Shown here: piece by piece, positions 8,194 through 51,426 of the stretch
Layout: every line of letters starts with the position of its first letter
Numbering within the stretch: position 1 is the stretch's first letter
Assembly: GCA_028753945.1 (NCBI GenBank)
Contig: JAPNXP010000004.1
Coordinates: 2,480,001 to 2,544,000, forward strand
From: Hexactinellida sp. DTS-2022
Taxonomy: Eukaryota; Porifera; Hexactinellida
Direction of reading: 5' to 3'
Length of the DNA stretch: 64,000 nucleotides
Notes under the pieces: model-generated
Told to the model about the DNA's origin: nothing
Databases searched by the model: none
What the model saw: the letters and a program-made list of their open reading frames with translations, nothing else
Program-made: the position numbers and the translations under genes

Positions 8194-8571
8194 TACAGTC
8201 GACTCCACTTAATAGAGTCACCCAAGGGACCAGGTTATTTTGACCCGATTAAGAGGAGAGATCATTTAACCGTATTATTTTAAGTAAACTGTAATACGTC
8301 CTATAAATAATGTCAAATTTTAATCCCATTAAGCAGTTAAATCTATAAACCGGTGGTTCCACAGCCTACGTAACTATAGCCTATTCACGGTAAGAGTTTT
8401 ACATCACCATGGATTACTCCAAGTCTATTTTATAAACAAACCATAATTTTTAAATTTCATCTTATTACGATAATATAATATAGGATAACTATTGTAATTA
8501 CTTGACAATATTATTTACATTTTCTTACTAATTCCAATTAATACATATTTTTATGTGTCTTTCTTAGCAAT

Positions 8572-11500
8572 ATGCCAAATAGATGTAGTGTGGCCAACTG
8601 TTCCTCCAATTACGACGGCACTAATTACACTCCGGTGTTTGAAATGTTGAACCATTGGTCGAAAGAAGTGTAGGAGGAATGGCGAAGATTTCTCCATAGA
8701 AATGATGCATGGGAGTTGGTGAAAGTCTTCATCTGTGCGAAACATTTCAGTGATAATGATGTGTTACTTGACTTCTATATTCCCATGGGTGACGGTACAG
8801 TGAAGAAAGTTTCAAGAAAACCTGGTCTTCGAAAAAATGCCAAGCCCGTCAATCTACCTAACTGTCCTTCTTACTTACAAGGATCTTCTGAACATCCCAG
8901 GTTGTTTAGACCGAGATGAAATTGATATCCGGCATTTTCATCAAGCTCTTGAGTTGAGTCGTGAAAAACTTAAAAAGGAGAGCGAAACCTTTTCTGTTAA
9001 TGATATTGATGATATCGAGCTGAAGTTTTCGACATTTAATTTATCTGAAAAATGGATGTATATTCGCTCAAGTCAGACTACCTTGCATATTTTTAAGAAG
9101 TTACAATCTGGACCGCTACTGACCATGTCTCACCAGATTTGTATTGATGAGACTTTGCATGTGAGGTGTTTTGTAATTGAAGATGAAATTCCAACCCAAA
9201 TCACTCTCATTTCTGATATTCGTCAAATTTCTCAGTTAACTCAAGAGCTTGAGACACATCAACAAGATGCTATTGAGATTGGTATCAACAATGCTATCTG
9301 TTCAGTTAGATCTACCATAGAGAGATTGACAACTTGTCAAGAAGGAAGCATCTTCAATCGGCTACAATTTATTTTGTATCAACTTGAAAATTTGAAGGTT
9401 TCAAAGAACAACCGTCGTTATAATGTCTTAACTTTGGTTCTATCTCTCAAGGCTCAATTAATCTCTTCGGGTTGCTACCGATATCTGCAATCACTAGAAT
9501 GTATCTCTCTTCCTCATCGATCCACTCGTCGAAGGCTATATTCAAATATTGGCTTAGACACAAGTTTTATAGATTATCTGAAGGTTGCATGCAAAGACTT
9601 CAACAAATTCAAGAAACATGTTCTTCTCCAGTTAGACGAGATTCACGTAAGGTCTGATTATACCTATAAGGGGGTAAAATCTTTGGCTCCTCTTTTATAC
9701 AAACCGATTCAGCACATCCAGAAAACAGTTCATTTGAATCTCATTAAACTAAGACTGTCTTAGCTTTTCAAGTTACAAGCCTATTCACAAAGTTGTCATA
9801 AATTGTGAGACTTCTTCCATGTTGTAATGCAAAATCTTCTGACTTACTTCCAGTGGTAAAGCAAGTTATTATTGACATCGAGAAGTGTGGTCTTAAGGTA
9901 GTAGTAATTTGTACAGATTATTACCAACTAAATGTGAGTTTATTCAAGTCTCTAGCTGGTAGTGCAAGTTTACAGCTAACTTGCCCAAACCCATCAGACC
10001 CTACTAGATCAATTTTCTTGATGTTTGACCCAGTTCACATAGTGAAGTGTATCCGAAATAATTGGATAAATCAAAAGGATACCAATACAACCTTTACCTT
10101 TCGAACAATTGATCATTACTTTAGTGAAACTTTTCCTCATCACCTTTCAAACGCTTCATTCACAGATCTCAGAAATATTTACAAGTCCGAGCAATATTCA
10201 ACTGCTAAGATCGCTCATAAATTAACATCCAAAGTTGATTGGCCATCAGTTCTTGAAAGACAAAGTGTCCCATAGGCTCTTGCAGTTTGGGATCAGTCAA
10301 CATCCCAATGCGGTATTGTTGTTTAATCAAAGGAATAATATTTCAAACCAAACTTATCATTTCATTTCTCTCATTAACAGATTTTGGGAAATGTGCAAAA
10401 TACATAGTCCAGGCAAAGATATTCGCCTACGTGATCCTGATTTAAAGGTTTTCAAGCTTGAAGATTATCGTTTTGTGTTTTTTTCTAAGTTTGTTTCTTG
10501 GCTTCAGGATTGGAAGTGCTTTAGTTGTAGCGGGAGAGCAGGAAAGCTTAGCTCACAGACCTTTATTAGTTTAATTCACACTTGTCAAGTTATACCAAAA
10601 ATCGTTAACTATTTAACCAGCGATGAGTGTGGATTTTCTTACGTTTTGACAGGATTTCTACAAAACGATTCTCTTGAAAAACATTTGGTGTGTACAGATT
10701 AATGTCCGGTTGTAATTACAACATTTCTATCTGCCAAATTCTTGAGAGTGAACGTAGAATTAAACTCTCAAACATCTTAAAATTATACCGAGTTCAAAAC
10801 AGCAAATTTGAGACTTCGCTAAAGGAATTTGTTAAAACTTTCTCGTGTGATATGGAACCTGATACACACTGTTCTCTCTAATAGTCCACCAGTGGGCAAT
10901 TGGCCCAAAGTGGACTATTAGAGAATATGGACTATTACAGATATATAAATAGTTGATTTTGAAGAGTAAATAAGTGGACTATTAGAAAAGTGGACTATTA
11001 GAGAAGTGGACAATTAGAGAGAACAGACTGTAACGCTGAAACTCTCCAAACAGACCTGAGCGCTTACTCTTCGCTTCTCCACCAAAACTTCGATTTTTCA
11101 CCGATGACAGAAATTCGCCAGTCCTTGGCTTTCATTGCTGGATATGCTACACACAGTATTTGCAAGTCAAAATTATATTCGAAGAAAGTAATTTCCAATT
11201 CTACCACTTCAATATGTTATAACTGTGTGTCTTTACTCACACATGAAGAAAGTTTTGCCTTGGAGTGTGAAGATTCTGACTTGAATCTAATTCACTTAGC
11301 AGACCGAGGAGGACTTAAATATCCCTCTGATGAAGTTATCAATGCAGTCATAACTCTATGGAAAATCCTTTATAGAATTGAACAGGACAATTGCCTGATG
11401 AAACAATTTGTTACTGGTACCAGTAAAACTATACTAATCCAACTCTCAATTTCGAGGATAGAATTTGAGAGTTTTGATTTCTGGAGATTTGAATGCCCTA

Positions 11501-11658
11501 GTTGTCAAACACCATTCCTTTCTCATCTCAGCAAAATACTCTGTGCCGCTAGCAATTGTTTATTGAAGAATAAAGTTCGCAATTTAAAATCTAAAAGGAA
11601 CTTGGAAAAATTCCACGGTGGATCGAAGAGGAAACTACAAGAGTTACAATCTGAATAA
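8572..11658 (+). pseudogene. THAP-domain P-like transposase, copy C (decayed)
   Basis: Starts MPNRCSVANCSSNY, the first half of a C2CH THAP zinc finger, completed by VFICAKHF near 8720-8755. The catalytic core follows: QLDEIHVRSD (first Asp) near 9630, a CTDYYQLNV block near 9910 (second Asp), FDPVHIVKCIRNNW near 10025-10065, and a degenerate LEKHL in place of the LEHHFG of copy A near 10675. The C-terminal SLAFIAGYA and DRGGLKYPSD blocks follow. Breaks: a TAG at 8671, frameshifts near 8905, 9690, 10320 and 10690, a stop at 10273, and a 166-bp MITE between core and C-terminal part. The family role is to bind element ends through THAP and catalyse cut-and-paste; this copy cannot. Confidence 0.85.
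10865..11030. mobile_element. Tigger-like MITE inside transposase C (166 bp)
   Basis: Ends CACACTGTTCTCTC and (reversed) CAGTCTGTTCTCTC, with TA at 10863-10864 and 11031-11032. The module GTGGACTATTAGA recurs several times inside. It lies within the C transposase coding region, so it is younger than C. Confidence 0.8.
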
Positions 11659-11906
11659 TAGTTATTTTATGGTATGTATTGTAATCGTATACAGATAGTT
11701 TGTAATAAGAGAGACAATTATCACCGTTACCCACCTCTATTGCAGTAATATTCACTAAAATCCATTTAATATCAGGTAAATTAGATATGCTATATATTGT
11801 ATGTATTTTGCATGTAAGACTTGAAGTTATCCATGGTAAATACCGTGAATAGGCTATAGTTACGTAGGCTGTGCGGTGGTTCTATTAAGCGGAGTGGATT
11901 GTATAC

Positions 11907-12437: not shown

Positions 12438-12439
12438 GT

Positions 12440-18867: not shown

Positions 18868-20235
18868 GGAATACCTGACATTATCCAGCACGACCAGGGC
18901 AAAGAGTTCATAAGCAATGTGAGTAGTATAATGTAACACTGTTTGTTAGATTAGTGATAATTTATCTAATTTTACACACTAACATTATAGTATGTACACT
19001 GTATTGTTATTTGTATATATTTATTGAATTATATTTATTGTATTTAACAGATATTTAAGGAATTAACCAGAATTGGGTATAAACAATCGTAGCACTTGTG
19101 CTTAACACCCATTGGCAAACAGCTTAGTCGAAGCGCACAACAAGATTTTGAAACAGTTAGTGTTTTGTAATATAAAATTTAAGACCCATTTACGAATTAT
19201 CCATATAGAAAACAGATTAAAATGGAGAGTCGATAGGGAATCATTGGTCCAAATTGCTCAAACAGGCTGGCTTGCAATAAACTCCTGTAAGAAAAGATCC
19301 CGCGGGCAAACTCCATTCAAGGTTATGTGGGGAGGAGAGTCCCGGCATCAAGATCTCTTGTCCACCATTAACGACCTGCATACCAACGATGAGGAAGACT
19401 TTGATTTGGAAGAATCGATTTTCTCTGAAGTCACACGTCCACTAGATGACATCGAAGGGATTAACAACATATTTTCTACCACCTGATAATCCCCTCGAAG
19501 CAGTTAGCAACATCGATGAATCTCGAACTTCTACTGTAGTTCTACATAACAATCAGCAATGGACTGTATCAATTTTGAACAACTCAAGCTGAACATTTAA
19601 AAAGAATCGTTTTATTTCACAACAACAAATTTGGTTTTAATTATTTTGTTTCTATTATTTTGTTAATCGTAATCAGATAAGGTTAGTGCTGGCAATTGAC
19701 GTAATTGACACTGCATTATAATTTCGTAGGTTGGCAATGAAAAGTTAATAACTATAAGTAATAGCATAACCTACTAAACATAAGGCCATTTCACCGAGCC
19801 AAATGCACCTGGATCAGAGATAAGATGAAGGGGATTTTCTTATATACCCATAATATAAATATAAATATTTTGATTAAAACTAAAATGCTAATCTGGTTTA
19901 GAAAATAGTTAACGAGATTCGTCTGTAAATATTAGCTATTCTTATTACAATTTCTCTTTAATTCAATCATACTTTTCCATTATAATGCTACCTCCTTGCT
20001 TATTTATATCCTGCACTCATGCCCAACTATTGTTCTGCTTCCACATGTACTACTGGATGCTATAGTAATCATAGTGGTGTTGCAGTATTTCACATTTCTT
20101 CTGGGCCGCAAGACATCGTACATAAGTGGAAACGTTTTTGAATAGAGTTTGTGAGTATGTCTTTACTAGTTGGACAAGCTTAATTAAATACTTTACGAGT
20201 TTTCCTTTTAAGTTAACATCACTTACATACCTTAA

Positions 20236-20345
20236 CCCTCGTCTGGCTAGGAATGTAAAATTGAAACTGAAAGTTAATTGAATTTCAATTGAAAGTGAAA
20301 GTGGGGTTTTTCTATTTATACCTTTTACCCCAAGCCAGCCGAGGG
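20236..20345. mobile_element. piggyBac-like MITE (110 bp)
   Basis: Flanked by TTAA on both sides (20232-20235 and 20346-20349). Inverted ends are CCCTCGTCTGGCT and AGCCAGCCGAGGG. A CCC-type start at a TTAA target is the piggyBac signature. It lies in B between the THAP exon and the A insertion. Confidence 0.78.
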
Positions 20346-20543
20346 TTAAGAAATAACTTATATGTAGACCGTGTGTTTCTAGACCAGATTTGTATTACCC
20401 ATAAACGGCAGGGCTTTTGGTCTTTAGAATTTATAGATGCTCTATATATTTTCGGATTATTTGTGTGGGCTTTTTTATACCGTCTACATATAAGGATGCT
20501 CTTTAATTAATCATACGTAATTATGTAATTATATGCTAGATCG

Positions 20544-23500
20544 TGACCTACGTAATATCAGGCCTTGGCGCAGAAAAACCATTGATAGGTCACAAGGGTT
20601 AATTATAATTCAACCATAATTTTTTTTTAAATTTAGAACGTATTAATCCAGACTTCATCTCAATTTCACTTTGTTTTATAGTATTAGACGGCCATTTTTT
20701 TCACGACTACTTGTGTTCTTTTTACTCTTACTCCATTAAATTATTCTCTATTATACCATTGCACGTATTTTCGTAACCTAGTCAAATGCGGATTCTAATT
20801 ATTTACTTGCTTTTTATACACAAATTTAGCTTTATTTGTTCAAATTGAGTCTTCATCTACCCTGAAGATGCCTAACACATGTTCCGTACCCAATTGTCGA
20901 AGCAATTACAAAGGCGAACCTTATACTCCTTTGTTTTCCTTACCTAAGTGCCCAGACTTGGCTAACAAATGGATAAGAGCTATTTGCAGAGAAGGCGCGT
21001 CAGACTTAAAATCAGTGTATGTATGCATCAAGCATTTTCGTGAAGAAGATATCCATTGAACATACCAAATTCATCAAGGTGATGGGTCTATCCAGCATAT
21101 AGAACGTTGCAAACCTAAACTTTCAGAAAATTCTGTCCCATGCATCTTACCTAGCTGCCCTAAATACCTCTCTTCCTCTACGCCTAAACCTCCCCGTCTT
21201 ACTTATGAAACGAAAGAGCAAGAATTGTTCGATGAAGCTCTAAAGCTCAGTATTGCCGAACAAATAACAGAAATTGATAAATACAATTTAATAGACTTCG
21301 AAAATCTCAAAGAAAAGCTCATTTCTGTTACTCTACCTGATAATTGGGTTCACTGGTATTCCGATGAATGCACAGTTCACTTTATCAAGCCATCATTATC
21401 CGGACAGATATTATCTATCGATTCCACCTTGTCTATTTATCGTTCACTTACTGCTAAGGCTTTTATAGAGGGCAAAGAAATCCGAATTTCAGTGGACGTT
21501 GTCAAGGATATCAGACAAATTGAAATAATCATCCAAAAATAGCGATACGAAACAAGCAGTTTTGAAAGAATGTCCTAATACCACCTATCAACATATTTCT
21601 AAGGCTACCGAACATCTAAAGGAATGTATACTACAACTAGAGCAAACACCAGAAACCTCATCAAGCTTAGATTCCGATACTCAATCAACTGTTTCATGTG
21701 ATACACGTTCACATATTAACCGTTTACAATTCATACTGTGCCAATTAGAAAATGCTATTGTTCCAAAAAATATACGCAAGTATAACATCCTTACACAAGT
21801 AGTCGCATTGAAATCTCACTTAATCTCACCAATCTGTTATAATTATTTGCAATCACTAGAGTGCCTTTCACTACCCCATCATAGAAATCTTCAGAAGCTG
21901 TACACTAATATCGGGTTAGAAGATGACTACATCGTATATCTTAAACAAGCAACTGCGCATTTCACTCATCAACAACGTAATGTTATAATTCAAATGGACG
22001 AAATTCACGTCAAATCGGATCTTACGTATAAGGCTGGTAAAATTTTTGGATCTTCTGGGGATCTTAATGAACCCACCCGCACTATTTTTGCTTTAATGGT
22101 ATCTAGCTTATACAAACGGTGGTCTACCATTATACATCTTATTCCTTGTTCTACAACATCAGCTGGAATCTTATTTCCGACAATTACAAAAGCTATTTGT
22201 GATATCGAGCTTTGTGATCTTAAAGTTCAAGTGCTTTGCACCGATAACTACCCTCTGAATGTCAGCATTTTCAAACTATTCTCACCTGACAAAACTTTGA
22301 ATCCTTCTGTTCCCCACCCTTGTGATTCTAACCGTACTTTGTTCCTACTATTCGATTTTGTTCACATCTTAAAATCAATACGTAACAACTGGCTAAATCT
22401 CAAAGACTTTAATAAAACGTTTCAATATCCTCAGTTTGATGATTTAACCACCACAAACATCGCATCATTCGAAGATGTACGTCTGCTCTACAGGTCAGAT
22501 CAACACAGTGTACTTAAATTAGCTCCGCGTCTTACGGCGAAATCTTGTTGGCCTTCTAAGTTGGAACGCCAGAATGTCAGCCTTGCACTAAGGGTTTTCG
22601 ATGACTCTACTGCTGCTGCTCTAGCTATTCAGGATTCATCGAGACAGACTTTCAACTATCAGACATCAGACTTCATAAAAATAATAACTAAAGTTTGGAA
22701 AATCTTCAATGTTAATACACCCGTAAAAGGAATACACTTGAAAGACGAATATTCAATGCCACTTCGCTACAATGATGCTAGATTTAGTTTTCTTAGTCAC
22801 CTGATCTCATGGCTTGATAATTGGCATAATATGCCAGACAGTGGAAAGTTAAGCAAGCAAACGTTTACAAGTTTTAAGCATTCAACGATATCTCTCACGA
22901 AAATTGTCAATCACCTTACTGAAAATTGTGGTTTCGATTATGTCCTCACTTCTTTTCTTCAGAACGATCCTTTAGAGCATCATTTTGGTTTATATCGGAT
23001 GATGGCCGGAGCACACTATCACATTACATATTGCCAAATACTTGAAACAGAACGTCGTTTGAAACTCTCTAGTATTTTGAAGTTATTTGTAAGTACTACA
23101 TCCTCTGGTGAAAAAACTTCATTAAATGATTTTCTCAAATCTTTTGCTACCTCTATTGAAGAACAGACTATCTCTGACTCCAACTTGTATCTAACCGACT
23201 ACTCAAACGAATTAAAGGATTTATCAAATCTAAATCTTGACATCAGAACATTACAAAGTTTGGCTTTTGTCGCTGGCTACGCAGTACATTCTTATTTCAA
23301 GAAGTCAAAATGTGAAGCATGTCTTCAGGCATTATCGGAACCTAAACTTCTAGAAATCGAAGAGCCTAAAGAAAGCAAGTACGTTTTGATATCACTACTT
23401 GACAGAGGTTCTCTTAAATGGCCATCTGACTGCGTACTCGAGGCTATTATTTGTCTATGGAAAATATTTGTAAAAATCGAGCAAAAGGATCACTTAATGC

Positions 23501-24014
23501 AAACACTAATAGCTGGGCCCTCTCGCAAGATTCTCATTCAACTGGCTATTGATTTCATCGACGAAAATCAAAGTGAATCATGGAGGGAGAGGTGTACAGG
23601 ATGTAACGCTTTAGGTTGGGACGTGTTGCGAAAGCTACTTACATCTACCACGAATTGCATTTTATCTAATAAGGTAAAGAATGTAAATTCTCAAATATCA
23701 TCAAGAGGTGAAGAGAAACGTAAATTAAAGAAGCTCAAAGTACAATGAATCTTTATGCGCTGTTTCGTTAATTAGTTATTATTAATAAATTAGTCATTAA
23801 CTACTATACATTATTCGTGCATTCACTTATTTTCTTTCTATTTATGAGAGATTAAATGATCTTTGGGCAATAATTATATTATATTAACTGAAAGGGCTAA
23901 CCTTCTTGACGAGACAATTGTTTATTCAATAACCCAAATTTCGTGTTAACCCTTGTGACCTATCCATAGTCCATTTTTGAAGATAGCACCAAGGCCTGAT
24001 ATTACGTAGGTCAC
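20544..24014 (+). mobile_element. P-like (THAP) transposon A, youngest and nearly intact
   Basis: The TIRs start GTGACCTACGTAATATCAGG at 20544 and its complement ends at 24014; similarity covers about 26 terminal bases. It resumes at a subterminal block GATAGGTCACAAGGGTTAA (20586-20603, and inverted at 23946-23963). GCTAGATC is repeated at 20536-20543 and 24016-24023, an 8-bp duplication with one extra base (g) at the right. The target is the THAP-encoding sequence of P-like B, just before its LHSLKTLFV codons. One long transposase frame occupies most of the element. The match of ends, duplication and reading frame indicates a recent insertion. Confidence 0.92.
20868..23748 (+). pseudogene. 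THAP P-like transposase, copy A (one stop, one frameshift)
   Basis: About 960 codons. The THAP finger opens MPNTCSVPNCRSNYKG and closes with VYVCIKHF, giving the C2CH ligands and the conserved KW. A TGA at 21057 falls just after it. A frameshift lies at the AAAAA run near 21533-21538. From 21562 a 728-codon open frame is uninterrupted. In it, QMDEIHVKSD gives a candidate catalytic Asp at residue 146 and CTDNYPLNVSIFKLF a second at 228. FDFVHILKSIRNNW matches the conserved block after it, and NDPLEHHFG gives a candidate catalytic Glu at 472. The C-terminal SLAFVAGYAVHSY and DRGSLKWPSD blocks are shared by all copies. The family cuts and pastes DNA using a DDE RNase-H fold. Apart from the two lesions it looks complete. 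Confidence 0.9.
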
Positions 24015-26688: not shown

Positions 26689-26814
26689 TAGTTGATAAAA
26701 TGAGTCTAATATTAATCAGGATAATTGGTTACAGTTATAAAAATAAACCCGCCTTCATCTTATCCCTGGTCCAAAGCAGTGAAATGGCCTCTATATAGTA
26801 GGCTATGGTAATAG

Positions 26815-35071: not shown

Positions 35072-35117
35072 TTAAAATAATAGGCTCTATTGACCATCCG
35101 GAATAATCAGCTAAAAC

Positions 35118-35267
35118 CAGGCCATCATCTAGCCCTAAGAGATCCGCGCACTCTTGGAAATGTTTATTTTACAATCGCGCACCCAAATAGAGCAAAAATA
35201 GCATATTTACCAAAAAAAGACAAAAATAGTATTAAAAATATTCTACTCGCACCCAAATGAAAGCCTG
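35118..35267. mobile_element. hAT-type MITE, CAGGCTTTCAT family (150 bp)
   Basis: The duplication GCTAAAAC lies at 35110-35117 and 35268-35275. Ends are CAGGCCATCATCTAG and (reversed) CAGGCTTTCATTTGGGTGCG. It splits the D transposase 40 bp after the TTAA element. Related to the MITE at 18686-18867. Confidence 0.85.
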
Positions 35268-35336
35268 GCTAAAACTGGGTTTTCTATGATGGTATCTAGT
35301 TTTATTACAAAATTTTCTATAATTGTACGTCTAGTC

Positions 35337-36095: not shown

Positions 36096-36731
36096 GTCTA
36101 GTCCCTCTCGATTCTAGCTCTGCTACGACCCTTTTCCCATTGTTAGAAAAACTATCACTGATATCGAAAGATGTAATATATATGTTGACGCAATATGCAC
36201 TAATAACTACCCACTAAATGTCAGTTTATATAAACTTTTTTGAGTAGACAAACAATCTCTGATGCCCATAGTAAACATCCATGTGATCCAATTAGAGATC
36301 TAATTTTATTTTTTGACATCGTGCATATTATTAAGTATGTTAGGAACAATTGGCTCAATTTAAATGACTGCGAAAAGGTCTTTATCTACCTAATATTTAC
36401 TAAATGCAAATCTCATCATGGGCGTAAACTTGTTCAAAACACCCAGGGTGCCATGACACTTTGTTCATTCCCTAGTTATATATTTTTCAAAATAAATATT
36501 TCATTTGTGAGATCATGATGCTGCATTGTTAGTTTGAAATATCTGTTAAGTTTTTTTCACTTTAGTTCTGATATAGGATCATTAGTTTCTCTGATTTTGA
36601 TGGCGTCCAAAACACCGTCACCAAAGAGAGTATGTCAACTGTATCTTTTGACATCCTTTATCAAGATGGGTGAAATTCAGCCGATTGTTGCACCCACACT
36701 TCAGGTTGAAGTAGAATCCGAGCCTTTACTG

Positions 36732-37958
36732 CAGGGCTCTTCAATTAGTTTTATCCCGGGCCACTTTTGAAACATCAGGCCCAGGCACTTCCCCGGGCCA
36801 CTCCGGGCCACTTCGTAACTGGAGTAGCCATAGGTGATTACTTATACGCTAATAACAATTAGGTAAGAATAAAACACATTATGTGATATACATAGTACGG
36901 ATACAAGACTACAAGTACAAGCAGAAAGGTCATATTAATGCATGTGACAATTTAATGAAGAATATCGGGAAAAGTAACTTAATGTAAAAATACTATGCCA
37001 ATGGTTGTATAATAGCTAATCATAAATTTGAATATTGGAATGATCAAGTAACTATCATATCCCAGGGCCTAGAAGGATAAATTACAGTTTCAGTTGCAGA
37101 GCATGTAGCTATGAGCGAAATAATATCGAATAAATGAGGTGACTGAATTAGACCGAAAATCTAGGCAGATCTGATTATCGAGGACTGGAATAAGACCGAA
37201 AGAAGATCAGTACAGGAATAAGATCGAATGGAATAAAACCGAAAGAATTCGTACTGGAATAAGACCGAATGGAATAATACCGAAAAAAAACCGTACTGGA
37301 ATAAGACCGAATGGAATAAGACCGAAAGAAAAACAGAACTGGAATAAGACCGAATACAATAAGACCGAAAGAAAATCAGTACTGGAATAAGACCGAATGG
37401 AAAAAGACAGAAATAAAATCAGTACTGGAATAAAACAGAATGGAATAAGACCGAAAGAAAATCAGTACTGGAATAAGACCGAATAATATAAGGGCTACGC
37501 TATGCATAGAAATACGTATGTATTGGCAAGAATAGAAGTGAAACCTAGACTTTATAAGCGTGAATTATGGTTCATTGAGAAAATATGCGACTATCTAAAG
37601 GTGTGTAGTGATTAATGGAGAAAACACAAGCCTTTCTAAGTGTGATGTATTGATCATGGAGAAAACACTCGCCACTCTCATTGTCTTTTATGGAGAATGG
37701 TTAAAACGCTCGCCTTTCTAAGTGTCTAATATTGATCAGGGTGAAAAGCAGCCCTAATATTTTTCGGTCTTATTCCATTCGGTCTTATTCAGTACGGATA
37801 TTTTTCGGTCTTATTCCATTCGGTCTTATTCCAGTACTGATTTTCTTTCGGTCTTATTCCATTCGGTCTTATTCAGGTTTCCCGAATAAATATATATACT
37901 GAAAAGATTGGGCGGGCCACCAAAATATAGGCAGCGGGCCACTAATTGAAGAGCCCTG
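36732..37958. mobile_element. hAT-type MITE with internal tandem repeats (1227 bp)
   Basis: The duplication CTTTACTG lies at 36724-36731 and 37959-37966. Ends are CAGGGCTCTTCAATTAG and CTAATTGAAGAGCCCTG, 17-bp perfect inverted repeats. The CCCGGGCCACT and AGCGGGCCACT motifs lie just inside. It interrupts the TTF-hAT gene near its 5' end. Confidence 0.92.
37130..37870. repeat. Tandem repeats of a GGAATAAGACCGA module, in both orientations
   Basis: From about 37130 to 37490 a unit of about 43 bp, alternating GGAATAAGACCGAATGGAAT and GACCGAAAGAAAATCAGTAC, repeats some eight times. From 37758 to 37872 the same unit appears as its reverse complement. The array lies wholly inside the hAT-type MITE and gives that element long palindromic arms. 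Confidence 0.85.
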
Positions 37959-40900
37959 CTTTACTGCATGTTCAAACAACTGAACATCTAAATCCGAACC
38001 TAATTGCTACAGACAGCTATTCTGAGCAGCCTCTTGACAATCTTCGCCCACTTGTAATCAATACAAGCATTCCGGACAGTATCACAGTGAGTGGTTGTCG
38101 TACAGTTGACAACCGTTCGTTTCAGGCCTCATGGACAAACGACCACACATGGCTGTGCTACGAATCAACACGACATGTCTGCTGGTGTGAGCCCCGTTGT
38201 TGGGTGTCATGGAGAAAACCGCTTTCCAAAATTTGTAAAGGCGTTGATGTAAAGAGGTCGCCTTTCATTGTTGGGGGATTCGTAAATTGTAAGAGAGGGA
38301 GAGAAATGGTAGAGAGACACGAAAGTTCTCAAGCCCACAGAGAAGCTGAGAAACTTTTTCTTGCACACAACAATCAAGAAAGCCTAGATGTTGCAATATT
38401 ACGGAAGAGTGATGCAGAGAAGAAATCAAATCGGGAGGCACTGGAGTGCATTTTTGATGCAATGACCCATTTAGCTCGGCAAGGTCAAGCTTTTCGTGGT
38501 CACATTGAAGCTGAGAGCAACTTCAAACAGCTTATGGCCCTATTGGGTAAACACAACATTACTATCAAGGAATGGATGGCCCGAGCAGCATACTGCTCGA
38601 AAACTTACACGTGGACCTCGCCAAAAATTCAAAACGAGATCTTGTATATGCTTCACCATGCTGTCCAACGCCAAGTACTAGGAAAAGTGAGAGAAAACCG
38701 TTTCTTTGCTATCATTGTAGATGCAACTACTGATCTATTTGTTCACGAGCAAGTATCACTTTCTGTAAGGCATGTGTCCAAGAGTTTCGAAATTAGAGAG
38801 GAATTCTTGGGTTTCGACCAGACAGATAGGACAGATGCAGAAACGCTTCTATCTTTGGTAAAACGGTGCCTGCTCCAGCTGGGACTAGACTTTGAAAATA
38901 TTCGGGGACAAACATATGATGGAGCAAATAATATGCGTGGATAGCCAATGGCCTTCATGCCAAAGTCTTGGCGCTCAATCGCAAGACTTTGTTCACATAT
39001 TGTGTGGGACATCAATTGAATCTTGTTTGTCAGGATGCAACCAGAGTGCACCAGAAGTGGTACAATGGAAGAAATTGGCGCTAACATCACTTTTATACGC
39101 CATTCCGCCAAAAGACTTGCTAGGCATGCTAGCTTCGAGAAACTGGTTGCTTCAGATTCTGTAATGCCTGACACGCATTTACGTCCATTGTGCTAAACCA
39201 GGTGGGTACTAAGGACCCCCTCTCTTAAGTCCTTCGTGTATTTGTACAGTGTTCTTATGGGCTGGTTTGAATACATGCTCCATGATTCTAATCAAAACGC
39301 TAATATGAGGAGTAAGGCGTTGAGCATCTGCAGAACATGGAGAGATTTCAGTTTTTCTTCCAGGCTCAAATTTTACTCAGGATTTTTGAGACCGTGCATC
39401 CTGTACATGTGAAGGTTCAATGCCGCCAGGTGACAATTGGAGAGACCAAAAAGAAATCGAGACTCTAGTGGACATACTTTCGGCTGACGGTGCTAACGAA
39501 ATACCGCAGAAGCATTCTATCGAGAAGTGAAGGACAATTGACAAGAATCTAACATGAAGATTGACCTTCCAACTCTACCCAGAGGCCATGCTAAATTCGT
39601 TTCAGTGGCAAACGAATGGAACTGGAGATCAGCGAAGAGAAATTACTCTCTCTCAGGCTGCCGTTGAAGGTCTGCTCAGCAGATATGACTCTGGTAATAT
39701 GGAGCAAATAGGTCAGATAGAGCAGGTTCTCAGTGTGCAGAATGCTTCCATGATGTTGTGAAGGCAGTGTGTGACCTGTATACTGGTGATATCAGTATAA
39801 GCGCTATCAGTCGGAATAGACAGCAGTGGTTCGCATATGCTTCAGAATTCGGACTGGAGACAAGCTGTGAAGGACTTCTAGCAGCAATGACAAGAAACAA
39901 CACCCTGGCCAACCTCCTTCCAGACTTAGCAACTCTGCATAGGATTTATTTGACTCTTCCACTACATCCTGTTAAGCCGAAATAAGTTTTTCTGTGCTCC
40001 TGCGCCTGAAGAACTATATGAGGACGACGATGAGTTAAAACAGACTGAACCATTTGTGCATATTGTCTGTGTACAATAACATCGTCGACACACTTGACCA
40101 ATCACAGCTTGTTGATGAATTCGTAATGAGGAATGAGCAACGCCAGGCAAGATTTGCTCTTGGGGTAACAACAGACACTAAAACTAGGAAACCTTACTTG
40201 TCTTAATTTTTGTTAAAAGAAAATTATTAGCTCGCAATCTACTAAATTGAGTCTGTGGGGTTAGTTCGGTTTGAAAATGTCAGGGTGCCAGACACCATTG
40301 GCACCATGCATCACAGCCGCCATGGTGCCAGCACCCGCCGCAGACCCCAAGTTTACGCATATGAATCTCATGACTACACATATACCGAAATATACACTTC
40401 AATAATAACTTCAGAGTTTTCATCAATACATCAGAACTTGGAATTGATACCTATTAATTTTCTAATTCCAAGTACCCTACCATATGGTATTCAGCCTTTG
40501 AGGATATAGGAACTTTATTCAATTCGGATAAGTGCAATTTATCCAATCGTGCTCCAAGATTAACATCAAAAGCCTGTTGGCCATCTAGCCTGGAAAGACA
40601 AATGTAAATTTTGCTTTTAACGAATCAACATCAGCGCGTGATAGTTAGCATATAACTTGTAAAAGAAACTTTGTTTCTTGGTTAGAGTGCTGGAGAGCTC
40701 TTCCTACAGAGATAGGAAAATTATTTCCGCAAACTATGAAAAGTTAACCTGCAAGGCATAACCCGTACTACTCGAATTGATTTGCACAAAATATGGTTTC
40801 AAATACCTTCTGACATCAATGATACAAAACGATGCTTTAGAACACCATTTTGGTGTGTACCGGCAAAATGTCTGGTTCACAGTATCACATTTAATATTTT

Positions 40901-41775
40901 CAAATCCTGGAGTCTGAGCACCGGCTTCAGCTTTCTAATAGTCTAAAATTGTTTCAGAAGAGAATCTGATACTATTGAGAGACCTACTAGCTCAAGTTGA
41001 GTGTCTCACGTTTGTCGCCGGCTAAGCTGTATTTTATTTGTATTTTCAAAAAACTATTAATTGTATATTGTGCAGGAAATTTCTATGTACTGAAAAATCC
41101 TTACAAGTGATTGATGACATGGGAAGTCAGTCTAATCTGATAGAATTGCTAGATAGGGGATCTCTCAAATATCCATCAAGCCATGTTCTTGAATGCATTA
41201 AGGTAATTTTTGACATATTTAGCAAATTGACAGTCATAGGGAACAATTTGACAACTTTTACCCTGGCTCTTTTCGTACGAAACATGGCAACTGTCATGGG
41301 CTACTATGAAACTAGAGCTAGCACACTTTGGAGGACCGTTTGTAAATGCAATGGATCGCGGTGGGACATTCAACGGAAACTCTTTATCACTGTTTCCAAC
41401 TGCTTGTTATCGAATAAAGTTAAGAATTATATTGTACTAGTATTGAAGAGCGATAATAGTAAGCTTACTAAATTCAAGGATTAATTTTTTAATTGGTTTC
41501 TTTGTTTTATTCAGTCAATCTTGTGCTGTTCCTGTAGACGTATTAACTGAGACTTAGAAGTATATTTATAATTACGTATTGAAGTATTAAGCTTCTTAGT
41601 ATTATAATAACTAGTATTATAATAACTTTATCAATATCTGTGTTTGTATGAGTAGACTGTATTATAGTATATTATATATTAAACTCATATTTTCGAAGTA
41701 GCACTCAACCAATCCCTGGTACAAATCTTTTAGTGACCACCATTGCCTTAGGGTATAGAATGATATGGCTCAGTA

Positions 41776-43588: not shown

Positions 43589-43791
43589 GTCTAATCAATG
43601 CTCTATATAAGTGTAAAAGAAAAGCACTCCTACTCAAATTCAATTTTCCTCGTTTGTTATAAATATTTTGAAAAATGTTAAGAGATTAAACAATAGTGTT
43701 ACAGAATATTGAAAATTGGAAATAACAAAAACAAAAGAATCTGTATGTTGAAAGTGTATTTTATAGTTTGCAAGATATAGTATTATGTATG

Positions 43792-46700
43792 GTGACCCAC
43801 GTTATAATAAGGCCTGTTCATTAGTGTAAAATTTTGCACCATGGATGTCGATTAAGTCCATTGATTCTTTTTACAATAAATGTTATAGTTAGAGATAATT
43901 AACCAAGTAGTAATCCAGAAGAAGTAAATATTATTGGGTATAATACCAAGCACATTTGAAATAAATGTATGTTTCAATAGTACAAAATATTAAAGAAAAC
44001 ATGAAAGTGAATATAAGTTTTTAGCAATAAACATTCAAAGAACAATAACAACTAAATGGGTTTAATTCACTTCCTTAATTTTTCGAGTATTTTCGACACG
44101 AACCGACTGCAAGGGTAGCCAGGCATTCATATTTATCGTTTTATTGGATATGATGCAGTATGAGTAGCTGTCAATAATTCGGCTAATATATCCCACATGA
44201 GTATACGACAACTGTCACACACCACTCTCAATGTTTCAGCTTGTTCATGTAATATAAGAGTGGTTGCTAACTGTACGAGGAATACTTCTAGAAGTACCGG
44301 TAATAAAGGTATCAAATAAGGTCGGTTGACTTTCGATTGAAGAGAATAATTCCACATTGTTATAATTGTCACTATGACATCGTTACTTGGCCATTTTAAT
44401 GAGCCTCGGTCGATAATCTGAATTAATCTATATTTAGACTCTGAAGGTTCGTCAATCTCCATTTCTTTATTTTCTGTGAGAAATGAGAGACAATTTTGAC
44501 ACTTATTAGAATGTTTGTCATATGCATGCATTAAGTAACCTACTATAAAGGAGAGTTATTAGAGTAATTGATTGTTTAAGTGAATTTCAGAGTATCCTTG
44601 AATTGCAGAAAGATACGTATCCAAGCTAAAAGAGGTTCCAGGTTCTTGGTCGCAGGAGGATGAGCATGATTCTAATTGTTTTTCAGTGATATCATATATT
44701 ATCTATCACAGACTTGTTCGAAAATAATTTTAGTATGCTGGACAACTTTAATCTCCATTCTGTTTCAAGTATCTGCCAATAGCTAATGTAGTATTGTGCA
44801 GCTGACATCATTCGGTCGAAGCCAAAGTGATGCTCAAGGGATCTTTTTTTACGAACTAAGAAAAACGTACAAATAGCCACAAGTTCCAGTGAGATGGTTA
44901 ACAATAGACGGGAGTGCAATACAAGAGTGACGAAAACAGGTTAAATTATGAGGACTTAATTCACCTCTATTGTCTGGCATGGATCTCCAACACTCAGCCC
45001 AAACTACTACACGTTGAAGGAAATTAAACTGGTATCATTGTGGTTAATGGAATGGAAATTTTATCTTTGAGAAGGATACCCTTATTGGAAGTATTAATAT
45101 TTAATATCCTCCAAACATTAAACATAGTGGTAATAAAGTCTGCAGTCTGTGAATTTGTAGAAAGTTGGTATCGAGATTGGTGGTTAACATTCAATGCAGC
45201 GGCTGTTGATTTATCAAATACCCTTAAGGCTAAAGTAACATTTTGTCTTTCAAATGTAGAAGGCCAACAAGCTATAGAAGTTAACCTTGGAGCTAGTTTA
45301 GCAACAGAGCGTTGATGACTTTTAAACAATTGTCGAATCTCTTCACAAACTTCTTTGTTCGTAACATGGGTATTCTCAAAATCTGGATAACAGAATGTCT
45401 TATTATAATCTATTTGGTTTAGCTAGTTATTACGGATCGATTTGATTATATGATCGAAGTCAATAAGCAAAAACAATGGCTGATTTTAATCCATAGGGTG
45501 AGGAACAACAATAGGCTCTAGGATTCGGTTAGGAGAAAATAACTTGAAATATTTACGTTCATCGGGTAATTATCAGTAGACAAAACGTGAACAAAGAGTC
45601 CACATGCTTCTATTACTTGAATAGCCTCTTTGATAATTGGAAAGAGTTCAACTGCAAATGAGCTGGCACAGGGAAGTAAACGAACAATATTGGCCCATCC
45701 TTTTGACAAACTTGACAACATGAAGGCAAAATGGTTTTTGCAGGATCAATAGGTTCAAAGAAGATCCTATTATCTTACCCCCTTGTATATGTTTAAGTTT
45801 ATTTTTCATGAATTTCATCCATCTGGATTACAACATTTCGCTTCCATCTGTTGAACTGTGTGGCTGATTGTTGAAGATAGTTTGTAAACTCAGCATCCAG
45901 ACCAAAATTTGAATACAAGCGTTTGGTTTAAGTGTGGAAAGATGCGGCAGGGATGGGACTGAAGATATCTGTAGCAAACTGGGGATATAAGCTGACATTT
46001 GAGCGACAGGACAATATTTTGAATGTTGTAGTCTTCGTGACCAGAAAGTTTTCCAATTGGCATAGTATGAACTGAAGACGTAAATTTCAGGAATGGTAAT
46101 AATGATTTTTTAATAAAATCAAAATCAAAATCAATTGATTTAAAGTTGATTTTTACTATTTGAAAATGGTGAAACCTATTGCAATCGTAGTTATTTCGAC
46201 GTAATATTACAAAGTATACTTACTGCGAAATTTGCAATTGAATACCTATTATATAATTTGAGTTATGTTCATTCAAATCAATGATTTAAATTTCCCAAAA
46301 AAATCAAATAAATCATAAATTTTCCTAGCCTGCAGACACGTAATAATACACCCTGCTGGTCACCAGAATATTCTCTAATTGAATGTGAGAGTAAGTCAAT
46401 GGATTTATTAATGCTTAAGGTAGATTCGCTGATATGGTGTTGGAATGTCTCAGGAGAATTAATTGGGATAGAACGGTTGGTGTTCAACTTCTTTGAGTAT
46501 AATGTTAAGTTGACGAATATCATTAATCTGAAGTAAGGAAAGAGAAAGTCGAACACCTTCATAGAAACCAATAATATGCAGTGTTTCGGTAATGGTTAAC
46601 GAGCAACGAATCGAAATCAAACAGTTACTTGTTATAGAAAGTTTGATTAAATTGAAGGAACTATCATCAGAAGACCAAATTATCCAACGATTCGGCATAT

Positions 46701-47441
46701 CTAAGTGATTTGTTTTGGATACTAAATCTGGTAGCGTGGTGAATTCAAAAAGCTCTTTGTCTTGATAGCAGCACATCTAAATATGATCCATCAGGTTGAA
46801 GGATTGAAAAATTGGTTTGTATTTCTTCGTCGAGGAAATGTTTAGAACATACAAACACATTCTTCAAGTCTCTGACATCTTCTCTACAGAGCGCTCGGAG
46901 CCAACGGTTGACGAGCTCAGGTCTTGGCAACTTAAATACTGGAGTTTACGGTTCTCCTGGCAAATTACTCCGACATCCTAAGGAGAACACTTGTTGGGCA
47001 TTGCAGCTAATGGAATGTTAAAATTAAATATATATAAGGAAGAATTAGAGAGGGAGGTTGTCCAAATGTAAATAGATTTAAACTAGAAAGAACGATATAT
47101 GGAAAGGAAACAGTCAATTATAAAATAATAACGAGGGTTAGTTGGCAAAAAAGACATAATAAAGACACTCTGTAATTATTTTGAATGTCAAAAGCTTGTT
47201 CCAAAAATATATATAATTATTATGGATTTACATGAAAATGGACTTTCTTTAAGCACGAAGTAACGTTCATAGTCCAAATTTTCAATAAATGGCATGCCTT
47301 AATATAATATAGGTCATCTTATTTGGTTAATTATCTGTAACTATGTATAACATTTATTGTGAAAAGAATCTATGGACTTAACCAACATCCATGCTCCAAA
47401 ATTTAACACTAATGAACAGGCCTTATTATAAAGTAGGTCAC
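43792..47441 (-). mobile_element. P-like (THAP) transposon E (3.65 kb)
   Basis: TIRs of about 95 bp: left GTGACCCACGTTATAATAAG from 43792 and reversed right GTGACCTACTTTATAATAAG from 47441. Both continue with GCCTGTTCATTAGTGT, then TCCATxGATTCTTTT and ACAATAAATGTTATA. Flanks TATGTATG (43784-43791) and TAAGTATG (47443-47450) agree at 7 of 8, again with one extra base at the right. The outer bases GTGACCTACGT are shared with A. Coding runs on the minus strand. Confidence 0.87.
44133..47000 (-). pseudogene. THAP P-like transposase, copy E (decayed)
   Basis: The THAP start at about 47000 (MPNKCSP) is followed by degraded GCRSNLPGEP, then open sequence with PELVNRWLRALCRED and VFVCSKHF (46930-46820). 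The pre-core NDIRQLNIILKE is near 46520. An AT-rich tract of AATCAAAATC repeats at about 46090-46310 looks inserted. VIQMDEIHEK, with the first Asp, lies near 45820, and STDNYPMNVN, with the second, near 45565. RLTSIACWPSTFERQNVTLA follows near 45260, and LEHHFGFDRMMSAAQYYISY, with the candidate Glu, is at about 44845-44790. DRGSLKWPSNDV is near 44400, and the protein ends at 44133. All three candidate catalytic blocks survive, but stops and frameshifts separate them. Confidence 0.82.
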
Positions 47442-47471
47442 GTAAGTATGTATTCTAGAAATAAACAATGG

Positions 47472-48733
47472 GAAAATTCCAAAAATACTCAAGTTTTTTA
47501 AAAATTTCCAAATATACTCAACAATACTCAACTAATTAGTAAATATACTCAAGTTTTTCCAAATATACTCAAGTTTTACCGGATTATTCCAAATATACTC
47601 AAGTTTTATTGGATTATTCCAAATATACTCAAGTTTTATTGGATTATTCCGAATATACTCAAGTTTTATTGGATTATTCCAAATATACTCAAGTTTTATT
47701 GGATTATTGAAACTAGTATGGAGATCCAAACCACAAAAAATATTTATTAGTACAATTTGCTCGTCTACTCTACGCGCGTCCTTACAACTTGTGCTCGGGC
47801 CTACGGCCCTCGCTTGTATTTAAAGCATGTTCCTTTTCAAATTAAATGTCGTTCTTGATTAGAGGCCGCTAGCTGTCTATTTATATCCGTTCATCCTAGC
47901 TACAGGTTTCAATAAGGACAGATTAAATAATTTGGATATTTGTTCTAGATATATAAGCTTGTCCGTGTATAATAATATACCAATTCCAAATATAAAATTA
48001 AATATCACTAAGAAACTGTACCAGTGGACCCCTAACTTTGGGATGTGGAAAAGTTATTGTATTGATTGATAATAATTTGATATCAAATAACACAATGGAA
48101 TGTTATAAATGTATGGCTAGACAGACAGAACACAAATAACTGATTAAATGCCTGAACTTCCTCTCGATCAATTAGATTACAGTCTCAGTATTCCATAATG
48201 CACACTTAACATTTGACAGACACTAAAGCATTCAATTATATTAAAATAATTGAATGCTAGCTGCTAATCCATACTGGAACAACCCTCGAATTTAATTGGC
48301 TAAAGGTTTTGACACCTTTTGTGATGGAAGATATGAATATTCTTTAGATATTGAACTTGTTTGTACATACAGTATTCCCTACCCCCCTGCCAAATTTTAG
48401 GTCTGTAGCATTTACCAGTTCCTCAATCAATTCTGAACAAACACACAAACAAACAAACACAAAAACATTGTGATTTAATATATAAAATAGACTAAATATA
48501 GCCTTTCTAAACTTGAGTAGATCTGTGAATTTACTGAAAAGTTGAGTAGATTTGGAATTTTTTGAAAAAACTTGAGCAGAATTGGAATTATTCTGAAAAA
48601 CTTGAGTAGAATTGGAATTATTTTTAAAAACTTGAGTAGATTCGGAAAGATCTAGTTTTATATTTGAGTATCAGTAAAAAGTTGAGTATATTTGGAAATT
48701 TTAAAAAAACTTGAGTATTTTTGGAATTTTCCC
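47472..48733. mobile_element. Long-TIR element with ACTCAAGTTTT repeats (1262 bp)
   Basis: Arms begin GAAAATTCCAAAAATACTCA on the left and, reversed, GGGAAAATTCCAAAAATACT on the right, continuing into TTTCCAAATATACTCAAC. The 12-bp sequence AATAAACAATGG occurs at 47460-47471 and 48734-48745. From 47520 to 47712 a unit of about 30 bp (AAATATACTCAAG, TTTTATTGGATTATTCC) repeats at least five times; 48500-48700 holds related units in reverse. No transposase. A duplication longer than 8 bp would suit a MULE-type element, but that is a guess. Confidence 0.72.
47750..48491 (-). mobile_element. Helitron-like segment nested in the long-TIR element
   Basis: Read on the minus strand, 48491-48430 begins CTATTTTATATATTAAATC, followed by a GTTTGTTTGTTTGTGTG tract, as at the 5' ends near 17833 and 53181. 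Near 47795-47815 is the palindrome GGGCCTACGGCCC. The 3' terminus is not clear. Confidence 0.4.
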
Positions 48734-49197
48734 AATAAACAATGGTTAAGATGATAATGAATAGCTTTAAATAAGATCATAGATTGAATTATAAGGCATG
48801 ATGGCCAACAAGATTTGAACGCCAAAAGATAAATATACGATTCCGCGCTGTCAACGATTTGACTTATGCAGCTTTAAAATACAGACGTTTTATGTTCAAC
48901 CATAGCCTACTCTACATTACGCCTAATAGTAGATGGACTTCCGAATATAATAATCTTATGGGGAGTTAACATAAAAGCACTTAAGTGCATCTCAAGTCAA
49001 ATATTTCCTAACCCAGTATATCCTATGAAAAATAAACCCATACATTTATTTGGAATTCATATATTTTAATGTCAACCTACATACAAAATACAAACATATA
49101 ACTACTGTAATACACAGCAATCACACGAAACACAACACTGTCTCTAGTTTCCAGCTTTCCACTAAGAGAAAACAATTTAAACAAGTATATATTCAAA

Positions 49198-49488
49198 CAC
49201 GGTACGTGGTATACCGATGGTATAATATGAAGTATAACCAATTATGCCAAATTAGTGTTTAATTCGGTGTACTACATTTTGCTTAATATTTATTAAATCT
49301 TACCTAGAATACAACTAGATTATACCAATATTATACCACAATATACCACGTATATTTCGAGTACTTAATGTAGTATAGATGTAAGTATATTAAATGAGTA
49401 ATGGAAGTTTAGAATGTTATACCGAACAATTCCCAATTTGGTATAATTAATTATACCTAATTATACCATCGGTATACCACGTACCGTG
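49198..49488. mobile_element. hAT-type hairpin MITE, GGTATACC family (291 bp)
   Basis: The duplication TATTCAAA lies at 49190-49197 and 49489-49496. The terminal 28 bases are a perfect inverted repeat beginning CACGGTACGTGGTATACCGA. The interior is rich in GGTATAAT and its complement. Inserted in the 3' part of P-like F. Confidence 0.9.
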
Positions 49489-49973
49489 TATTCAAAGGGG
49501 ATGTTAACGGTATAAATTATTTGTACATTAAAACCACAATGTTCAATATCGATTATACAAGATTTGATAGAGGGAAATATTTTTAACAGATATAGATGCA
49601 AATGGTTACGAACGGGTAAATTCTTATTTCTTATTCAAACTATACATCATAATCGCGAATAAAGTTCTCGTCGGATCCTCAAGGTTTAAATTTGGGTTCA
49701 AATATTTCCCCCCATTATAAGCAACAAAGTTTTTCATTCATTTGAATGATTACATTTTTTCCTTGGAACTAAAGCAACATGTAGCCTGAGTGAGATAAGT
49801 GTCAAAATCATTTTCAGGACCGAAGGATGAATACAACTCTATCTAGTGTATGGACATGTGGTAGAGTAATACATTCTAAACCCTGAAGATAAATATAACA
49901 AGCTGGAGAAATGAGGTATTAATCGATATAAGTTGTGTAATTATATTGTATCTTCGTCTATTTAGGAATATTA

Positions 49974-51056
49974 TTATAAATGTATATCTAATTGACAGAG
50001 CATAAATTGAAGCTTAGCTAAATCTGAAGAATTGTATGTAGGTCCGTCGTTACGTGCTAAATCATCAACAACATTCTTTATATGTTTTTTGGCAAGAGGA
50101 ATACGGTATGAATCAGAGTTACAACTAGAATCAGAGACATATTTTAGGGAGATTTCATGCAGTATCAATTTGTTGAATATCATTAATTGGATTTACCTAA
50201 AGGGGAATACTTTGTCCATGGAACCAGGCGGATACAGATGAATATGGTTATCAGGATGCCATACTAAATTACTAACCAATTATCAGGTAATGCAAACAAG
50301 ATTAACTTAGATTTAGATCCTGTAAATATCTGATGATGTACTTATGTTTCTCCTCACTATCAGATAGCCAAGTTGTAGTGTCTGATTCATCAATTCTTCT
50401 TCTTTTGCGTCATACGACATCCGTTTGGTTGTTGAGAATGAAGAATAGTACGATGGACAACCAGGAAGCAAGCAGGGAACTGGCCGTCTCTCAACTTGGA
50501 TTTGGAACGAGGTATTTTAGCGAAAGTTCAGTCTCCATTTGAAACCTTGTGAGAAACTTCGAAATATTCTTCCCGAATATGCTTCACGCATACGTTAACT
50601 ATATTTAGGTCAGTGGCGGCGCGGCCGCCCCCCCCCCCCCACAGATTTTTGGTCCGCCCCCCCTACAGATTTTTGGTCCGCCCCCCCCCCACAGATTTTT
50701 GGTCCGCCCCCCCCACAGATTTTTGGTCCGCCCCCCTCACAGATTTTTGGTCCGCCCCCCCGTTGGAGGGGCGGAAATCCAGTGTTTACGTAGGAAAATC
50801 GGCCGTACCCAAGCAAGGAGGTCGGGAAATTATAATTTCAACTGTATGTCCGCCCCCCCAGCACATCCGTTCGCCCCCCCGAGGCTACGGCGCTGGCGCC
50901 GCCCCTGCTTGAGGTTCTCAATATTCTCACGGTGAAAAGCACGTGTCCAAGCTTGTCTGACTTCTTGGGATGTTTAGGCATCCTGAATATAGAAACTCTA
51001 TCATCTGGGCTGTAGTTACTTCTGCATCCGGGGGTTGAGCAACAACTGGGCATAAT
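49974..51056 (-). pseudogene. THAP P-like transposase, copy F (fragment)
   Basis: A THAP start at 51056 (MPSCCSTPGCRSNYSPDDRV, then IFRMPKHPKKSDK) is cut off by the MITE at 50611-50907. Between 50550 and 50200 only decayed sequence is seen. Near 50183-49980 the pre-core region recurs (EISLKYVSDSSCNSD, LAKLQFMLCQLD), matching INRLQFILCQLEN in copy A. The catalytic blocks and C-terminal part are missing, so F is an internal-deletion derivative as well as broken. Confidence 0.72.
50611..50907. mobile_element. hAT-type MITE with C-rich minisatellite (297 bp)
   Basis: Ends CAGTGGCGGCGCGGCC and (reversed) CAGGGGCGGCGCCAGC. Flanks ATTTAGGT and CTTGAGGT agree at 6 of 8. At 50635-50760 a unit of about 24 bp, CAGATTTTTGGTCCGCCCCC, repeats five times. 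The Pro-rich and Gly-rich frames across it are artefacts. It splits the THAP region of copy F. Confidence 0.78.
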
Positions 51057-51426
51057 GTAAACGAATCTAATAGTTATAAATGAATAGGAACAGTAAGTGG
51101 ACAAGTAAATGACAAAAATTTATTGAGAGGCTAATAATAAGTAAACTATAAACTTAGTATTTATTTAGTGGGGTAATTGTAAAAAAAATGTGGTTCAATA
51201 TAAATATAATTATAGGATAAAATACTACCATCTATTAGTGCACCCTACTCCATAATTTCAAGGTTACTGTTAGGCCAGATATTGAGTAGGCTATGGCTCA
51301 ACGTCTATTAATTCCTTCACATTGTAGTTGAATGATGAATATTCTGAGAAAGTTAGGAAGACCTTAGGCTTTCAGTTTTCATAACTAATCTCTAAATGGA
51401 TTGAGAAATGGAGTGTGACAAAAGAC

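Follow-up and report, generated by a model that had tools for sequence, protein, structure and literature searches.

Diverged P-superfamily transposons in a hexactinellid sponge genome and target-site duplications whose length appears to follow lineage

Seven decayed transposons of the P superfamily and two further traces of such elements were recognised in a stretch of 64,000 nucleotides from Hexactinellida sp. DTS-2022 (assembly GCA_028753945.1, contig JAPNXP010000004.1; C13:2480001-2544000), called the window in the following. With high confidence, they are read as insertions from diverged lineages that expanded throughout the genome, at least one of them having moved recently, and whose transposases would cut the target with a stagger of 7 bp in most lineages and of 9 bp in the clade with CACAG ends.

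Results

P-like elements of the window

The window was searched by tblastn with element A as query and with a profile built from the window copies, with the reversed window as control. Seven separate P-like places were found by tblastn and the same seven were recovered by the profile. This agrees with a preliminary description of the window, made from its letters alone, that had counted seven P-like transposons with THAP domains over 43 kb; the limits of its span (8360..51295) are the exact ends of elements C1 and F. The reversed window gave zero profile matches at thresholds of 8 and 6 bits and two weak tblastn matches (E 0.82 and 0.069). Another tblastn match at 40179-39997 (E 0.04) was dismissed as chance. 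The elements, their terminal inverted repeats (TIRs) and their target-site duplications (TSDs) are as follows.

8360..11873, + strand: P-like element C1 (C in the preliminary description), TIR CACAGCCTACG, 3 in-frame stops in the aligned coding and frame changes
8351..8359 (left) and 11874-11882 (right): TSD of C1, CGGTGGTTC, 9 bp, exact; 9 bp is usual for the CACAG clade
19765..26807, + strand: P-like element G, split by the insertion of A; ends CATAACCTACT / CATAGCCTACT
19758-19764 and 26808-26814: TSD of G, GTAATAG, 7 bp, exact
20542..24015, + strand: P-like element A, located inside G; TIR CGTGACCTACG
20535-20541 and 24016-24022: TSD of A, GCTAGAT, 7 bp, exact
20868..21056, + strand: THAP domain of element A (PF05485, E 3.6e-11)
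21529..23748, + strand: catalytic part of the transposase of element A, with RNase-H N-terminal domain and GTP-binding-like insertion
about 28299..31185, - strand: P-like element B4, 5' end CATAGCCTACT at 31185
32036..41767, + strand: P-like element D, which contains several insertions; TIR (T/C)ATAGCATTCTATAC
32029-32035 and 41768-41774: TSD of D, GCTCAGT, 7 bp, exact
43791..47442, - strand: P-like element E, TIR GTGACC(C/T)AC, 12 in-frame stops in the aligned coding
flanks of 43791..47442: TSD of E, TATGTAT/TAAGTAT, 6/7 bases match
48901..51295, - strand: P-like element F, TIR CATAGCCTACT, without the third catalytic block
flanks of 48901..51295: TSD of F, GTTCAAC/GCTCAAC, 6/7 bases match
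48727..48879, + strand: P-like remnant H, from an eighth transposase, adjoining F on the left
51441..51500, + strand: lone E-type P terminus, 20/22 bases identical to each E end

Both ends could be read for six of the seven copies, each with its own TSD (four exact, two with 6/7 bases). For B4, no 3' end was found within the window and the element is probably truncated at this side. The lone end at 51441 likewise had no partner in the window. The earlier inventory was right about the seven elements and had missed the two traces (48727-48879 and the end at 51441). Remnant H reached 14.3 bits (E 1.7e-4) in a tiled profile search, where the reversed window was without a 6-bit match, and E 0.002 by tblastn; it stayed below 8 bits in the whole-frame profile search.

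All seven copies are decayed by stops, frameshifts, gaps or insertions. Element A is the best preserved with one premature stop and one frameshift. It lies inside G, as the P-in-P nesting described before had implied, and its insertion cuts the THAP region of G. When G was inspected by eye without A (20147-24016), this region appeared to be broken by an intron-like stretch (GTGAGT ... CTAG), with A inserted exactly at its 3' end.

Four conserved blocks, QMDEIHVKSD, CTDNYPLNV, LEHHFG and LDRGSLKWPSD, all lie within the catalytic part of A (21529..23748). The THAP start and/or these blocks had been reported for all seven copies. Three of the four are literal in A alone and LEHHFG also in D and E, while variants were seen elsewhere and G, B4 and F are without some of the blocks.

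At least four types of termini had also been proposed. However, 14 ends, compared over their 22 outermost bases, showed a mean between-element identity of 0.59 versus 0.265 after shuffling (maximum 0.30), two of these ends (19765 and 51441) having been located by resemblance. Judged by this comparison, the types are variants of a single motif. The TIRs are short and open with CAYAGCCTAC, CGTGACCTAC or CATAGCATTC. The two ends match each other in DNA over 57-67 bases in C1, 61-70 in A, 58-60 in D and 118-122 in E. An inner box close to CCAKGGAT was present 37-48 bp from the end in 12 of the 14 window ends; its summed score of 99 versus a maximum of 79 over 2000 random draws is descriptive, the box having been taken from the same ends. 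Terminal stem-loop pairing is perfect in A and in no other window element.

The transposases match the P superfamily

Element A matched PF21787 (TNP-like RNase H N-terminal) with E 1.2e-10 and PF21788 (GTP-binding insertion) with E 3.5e-5, 0.2 bits short of the curated cut-off, while element E was above this cut-off (2.5e-5). The C1 frame matched PF05485 with E 0.0012, below the cut-off, compared with 3.6e-11 for the THAP domain of A. When the PDB was searched with the sequence of element A, the sole match at E 0.1 was the P transposase 6p5a (2.7e-8). The catalytic residues of the Drosophila enzyme are D230, D303 and E531 (PMC7776569; this and the other papers are cited from excerpts), and a count by eye places the LEHHFG glutamate of A opposite position 531 of the 6p5a chain in the alignment. 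All three acidic residues (D, D, E) are kept in A and C1. The columns of element E read D, D, E as well, but the block around the first residue is disrupted. In the other copies, one or more of these residues is changed, uncovered as aligned or different between frames, a limit that for element E concerns the first residue. THAP domain, RNase-H D/D/E, GTP-binding insertion and short TIRs were thus all found, and by the sequence of their transposase the elements are filed in the P superfamily, even if the canonical 8-bp duplication is not their regular feature.

Some results weigh against this assignment. The AlphaFold model of the 739-residue part of A had a mean pLDDT of 44.4 and was useless for the fold. 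A PDB search with profile A1 returned no chain, unlike the single-sequence search, and beyond PF21787 and PF21788 zero P-family Pfam models matched the 739-residue part of A at E 1.

THAP domains are present in other transposon groups and hAT-type proteins are also encoded in the window, so that another THAP-bearing or DDE group (Kolobok, PIF/Harbinger-like or hAT) was considered as the source of the proteins. It is very unlikely, as the catalytic and insertion models are TNP-like, the single PDB match is a P transposase and the TSDs of 7-9 bp are unlike those of Kolobok, which are TTAA. Membership in another DDE family had been named beforehand as the finding that would speak against P elements; the proteins match the P family instead (Pfam, PDB 6p5a). 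THAP9 is homologous to P transposase over its whole length (PMC7776569), which could point to domesticated THAP9-like host genes. TIRs, target duplications, nesting, decay and the many dispersed copies make this explanation extremely improbable.

Separate insertions of diverged lineages

The window copies share a pairwise amino-acid identity of 22-47% (shared columns anchored on A). Identity to A rises to about 42-61% once neutral decay, taken from the stop count, is allowed for in a rough simulation. The elements sit on both strands with differing target sites and terminal variants. A tree was built from the seven window copies, entered as chained fragments, and from nine genomic proteins, three of which are partial frames (640-765 residues). 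C1 grouped with the genomic CACAG copies L022/L012, D with L139/L140 and E with L004 (support 100 in each case), A paired with L002, and B4 and F were placed with the CATAG copy L009 (support 86). G was weakly placed (51) and the deep branches were weak (36-62). A transposase tree had been suggested as a check of the earlier description; in it, C1, A, D and E fall with different genomic lineages, and their nearest relatives are located elsewhere in the genome.

The presence of seven copies inside 43 kb, and a density of P coding about twelve times that of a small genomic sample, would also fit local tandem or segmental duplication in place of separate insertions. This is scarcely conceivable in view of six elements with their own target duplications, on two strands and with differing terminal variants, of the identities given above with and without the rough decay correction, and of the tree neighbours of C1, A, D and E elsewhere. 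Tandem duplicates with shared flanks, which had been named in advance as contrary evidence, are not what was found for six of the seven copies. Separate insertion is therefore the preferred reading.

Genome-wide expansion and recent movement

The whole genome (112,398,167 bases, 18 contigs) was searched for TIR ends with at most 3 mismatches. In total 2340 ends were found, namely 669 of GTGAC, 83 of CACAG, 1309 of CATAG and 279 of ATAGCATT type, versus 1, 1, 0 and 0 for the respective reversed patterns. Half of the ends would correspond to about a thousand P elements as an estimate. With PF21787, the 150 best of 928 candidates were scored and all 150 passed the Pfam cut-off; 46 of these best 150 (counted by eye) belong to open frames 850 residues or more in length, and long open frames with this domain were found on many contigs. 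With PF05485, 150/150 scored matches passed, out of 1052 candidates, THAP domains being also present in other genes. The 739-residue part of A gave 68 matches in the genome; of 4400 first-look candidates, 61 were scored. The large multi-lineage expansion that had been proposed from the window is thus supported at the level of the genome by the 2340 ends and the PF21787 matches. On the other side, the copy number is an estimate, the best candidates alone were scored, and ends may be unpaired and variants missed. In addition, no TIR pair was found for L004 and no TSD for L007. Relatives of the window elements were not found in collections of viral and genome contigs that possibly exclude the genome of the window itself.

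L002 and L003 contain open frames of 959 residues that are 100% identical at the listed precision, with slightly unequal scores, and 99% identical to the 739-residue part of A. Each lies at a site of its own, and their 7-bp TSDs are exact but differ in sequence. Such near-identity between copies in separate places speaks for recent movement, and so, as far as the sequences tell, at least one lineage has moved recently. Among the 50 elements picked for TSD reading (see below), 7/10 GTGAC elements are short forms of 916-1076 bp and 4/11 ATAGCATT elements short forms of 1065-1080 bp. These are too short for a transposase and therefore probably non-autonomous.

Three further observations were made on individual copies. 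A second, outer inverted repeat (29/30) surrounds the P copy at L003:336-4760, and L003 may sit inside another inverted-repeat element. L145-L146 and L147-L148, copies of the 939-residue family separated by ~120 kb on contig 1, agree in their flanks and target duplication, so that one is probably a segmental duplicate. L002 (GTGAC, contig 9) and L149/L150 (ATAGCAAT, contig 10) are of different lineages and share the target string AATAACATCATC; CTAT follows the duplicated bases at both sites, which may represent a repeated target or a hot spot.

P coding makes up 15,064 of 64,000 bases of the window (23.5%) versus 3,960 of 200,000 (2.0%) in a sample of 20 ten-kb pieces, 19 on contig 1 and one on contig 2. 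It was found in 2/20 pieces (95% interval 1-32%) and in 0 of the reversed control. As the profile was made from the window's own copies and favours the window, the twelve-fold contrast is rough. The GC content is 35.0% in the window and 38.4% in the 200-kb sample. The earlier argument from local density to expansion was correct in its outcome for the genome, but the window itself is atypical. There is about an even chance that it is mainly a graveyard, a heterochromatin or silencing cluster that trapped old transposons and whose density says little about the genome. The contrast in P coding, the broken state of all seven copies and the nesting of several agree with this, as do the P-masters of Anopheles, 60% of which lie in presumed heterochromatin (PMC1562414). 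Such trapping would account for the local density but would leave unexplained the numbers found across the genome and the long open frames that are spread over many contigs. A graveyard and a genome-wide expansion are compatible.

TSD length by lineage

TSDs were read at both ends of 50 elements, hand-picked from paired hits and not random. Exact 7-bp TSDs were present in 9/10 GTGAC, 7/10 CATAG and 11/11 ATAGCATT elements, and thus in 27 of the 31 non-CACAG elements. In contrast, 14 of the 19 CACAG elements have an exact TSD of 9 bp, one of 8 bp and none of 7 bp. Exact 9-bp TSDs occurred in 0/31 non-CACAG elements and exact 8-bp TSDs in 1/50 overall. TSD length and clade are associated with Fisher 2.8e-11 (exact cases, insertions treated as independent). 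The short form, which would be moved by the transposase of another element, accounts for many of the GTGAC insertions. In the 965-residue family, 7 bp were read at 3/3 independent sites, one copy without a readable end being left out. On these readings, TSD length follows lineage, with 9 bp in the CACAG clade and 7 bp in most others.

This rule is weakened by the 939-residue family, in which four independent sites read 8, 7, 7 and 8 bp (L145 and L147, which share flanks, were counted once), and by the one CACAG element with 8 bp.

The window elements had first been read with an 8-bp duplication and a one-base offset between the ends, which was ruled out by the 50 genome-wide elements. The eighth base matches in several window copies, presumably by chance. 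As the window on its own had wrongly given 8 bp for all copies, the 9-bp TSD might similarly be a 7-bp duplication with a misplaced boundary. That is hardly to be expected, as the TIRs match 19-20/20 at the assumed boundary and the two outer bases differ from insertion to insertion; because these bases vary, a shifted boundary does not explain the 9-bp reading.

In the 7-bp group (27 sites, both strands pooled), positions -4, -3 and -2 favour A, T and A, respectively, and GTT follows inside the duplication; the pooled target includes A at -2, GT at 1-2 and their mirror image. In the 9-bp group (14 sites, pooled), A is preferred at -4, A/T at -3 and -2 and C at -1, with little inside. The G/C preference is hence inside the duplication for 7 bp (27 sites) and just outside for 9 bp (only 14 sites). 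The A/T preference is at the same distance from the joint (-4 to -2) in both groups, which suggests that the half-targets are read alike. As a point to the contrary, the mirrored halves of single sites matched no better than randomly re-paired ones (4.41 vs 4.48 of 12 and 3.71 vs 4.21 of 13), which speaks against a strong palindrome, so that the target preference is visible in pooled columns only.

The transposases of the 9-bp clade have a 13-residue stretch (6 + 7) at residues 397-400 of A, 20-23 residues past the first catalytic Asp, which six other long-frame lineages are without. Smaller indels and 22 fixed differences also mark this clade. The spacing between the first and second catalytic Asp failed as a ruler for TSD length, with 82 residues in A (7 bp) and 73 in Drosophila P (8 bp).

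Altogether, it is likely that P transposase lineages in one genome work with different staggers, of 7 bp in most, 9 bp in the CACAG clade and 7-8 bp in one family, with a shared A/T preference, a moved G/C preference and the 13-residue stretch in the 9-bp clade.

Other features of the window

Several neighbouring features were noted. Rfam and tRNA searches of the window gave zero matches.

36404-40449, inside D: GC-richer insertion adjoining an inverted array of the GGAATAAGACCGAAT repeat; the open reading frame 37946-38944 encodes a DUF4371 protein (PF14291, 9.4e-23), which is presumably hAT-like
54724-57256, - strand: hAT-type transposase with C-terminal dimerisation domain (PF05699, 2.2e-6), apparently over two frames
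15682-18665: large inverted repeat whose arms (~480 bp, 93% identical) enclose ~2 kb, flanked by integrase-like peptides (by eye) at 15370-15600 and 19106-19486 that gave no Pfam match
47469-48734, between E and remnant H: inverted-repeat element that contains tandem units of 30 bp (TTCCAAATATACTCAAG...)
52192-53181: 145-bp tandem array; a related copy is found at 17410-17834, 35 kb distant
62636-62990: long (TG)n microsatellite

Discussion

Based on the anatomy of the elements, the transposase would bind the ends via its THAP domain and excise them in a cut-and-paste manner. Both 3' ends would then be joined to the target at staggered positions, whose spacing the transposase would determine: 7 bp in the majority of the sampled lineages and, through a changed cut, 9 bp in the CACAG clade. 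Each half-target would be read alike, with a different distance between the two joints.

TSD length is widely used for classifying DNA transposons and tends to be taken as a property of the transposase of a superfamily, whereas the P lineages described here differ by two bases. If this holds true, a stagger set by lineage is a natural experiment on what determines the length of the target-site duplication. As lineages two bases apart occur together in a single compact genome that is rich in long open frames, the determinant is testable by comparison. The expansion also supplies many new P transposases for comparison with those of fly and fish.

The P element of Drosophila melanogaster shares the THAP domain, the RNase-H domain with GTP-binding insertion, the catalytic D/D/E and short TIRs with the elements described here. 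It makes an 8-bp TSD (PMC7776569), a canonical P feature that was not the rule among the 50 elements, which mostly have 7 or 9 bp; the 939-residue family, read in addition to these, mixes 7 and 8 bp. The TSD of Galileo, a P-superfamily transposon of Drosophila, is 7 bp and occasionally 8 bp (PMC4168063), like that of the GTGAC, CATAG and ATAGCATT elements and unlike that of CACAG. Its target is an AT-rich palindrome with the halves AANGT / ACNTT (PMC4168063), similar to the pooled 7-bp target. However, the long TIRs of Galileo (0.5-1.2 kb; PMC3688188) have no counterpart here (57-122 bases in C1, A, D and E).

Anopheles gambiae also contains several diverged P subfamilies in one genome together with non-autonomous relatives, but each subfamily has 3 to 41 copies, of which 1 to 6 are complete, and the TSD is 8 bp (PMC1562414). 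Zebrafish Pdre2 / THAP9 is a THAP-type P transposon with short TIRs opening with CATA; it differs by a TSD of 8 bp and by its numbers, with 50 or more sequences homologous to P (PMC10983969). The view that P elements usually occur at modest copy number, on which the preliminary description relied, is partly right, as the genome of the aphid Schlechtendalia chinensis is annotated with 1513 copies (PMC9783078). This high count is shared with the sponge, but 9 of the 1513 are full-length (PMC9783078), compared with 46 of the 150 best-scored domains in frames of at least 850 residues here. In a literature search of article excerpts that covered few subscription papers, with Repbase entries outside its scope, no P-superfamily element or clade with a 9-bp TSD was found. 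Multi-subfamily expansions of P elements are thus already known, and the lineage-specific length of the duplication is the new point.

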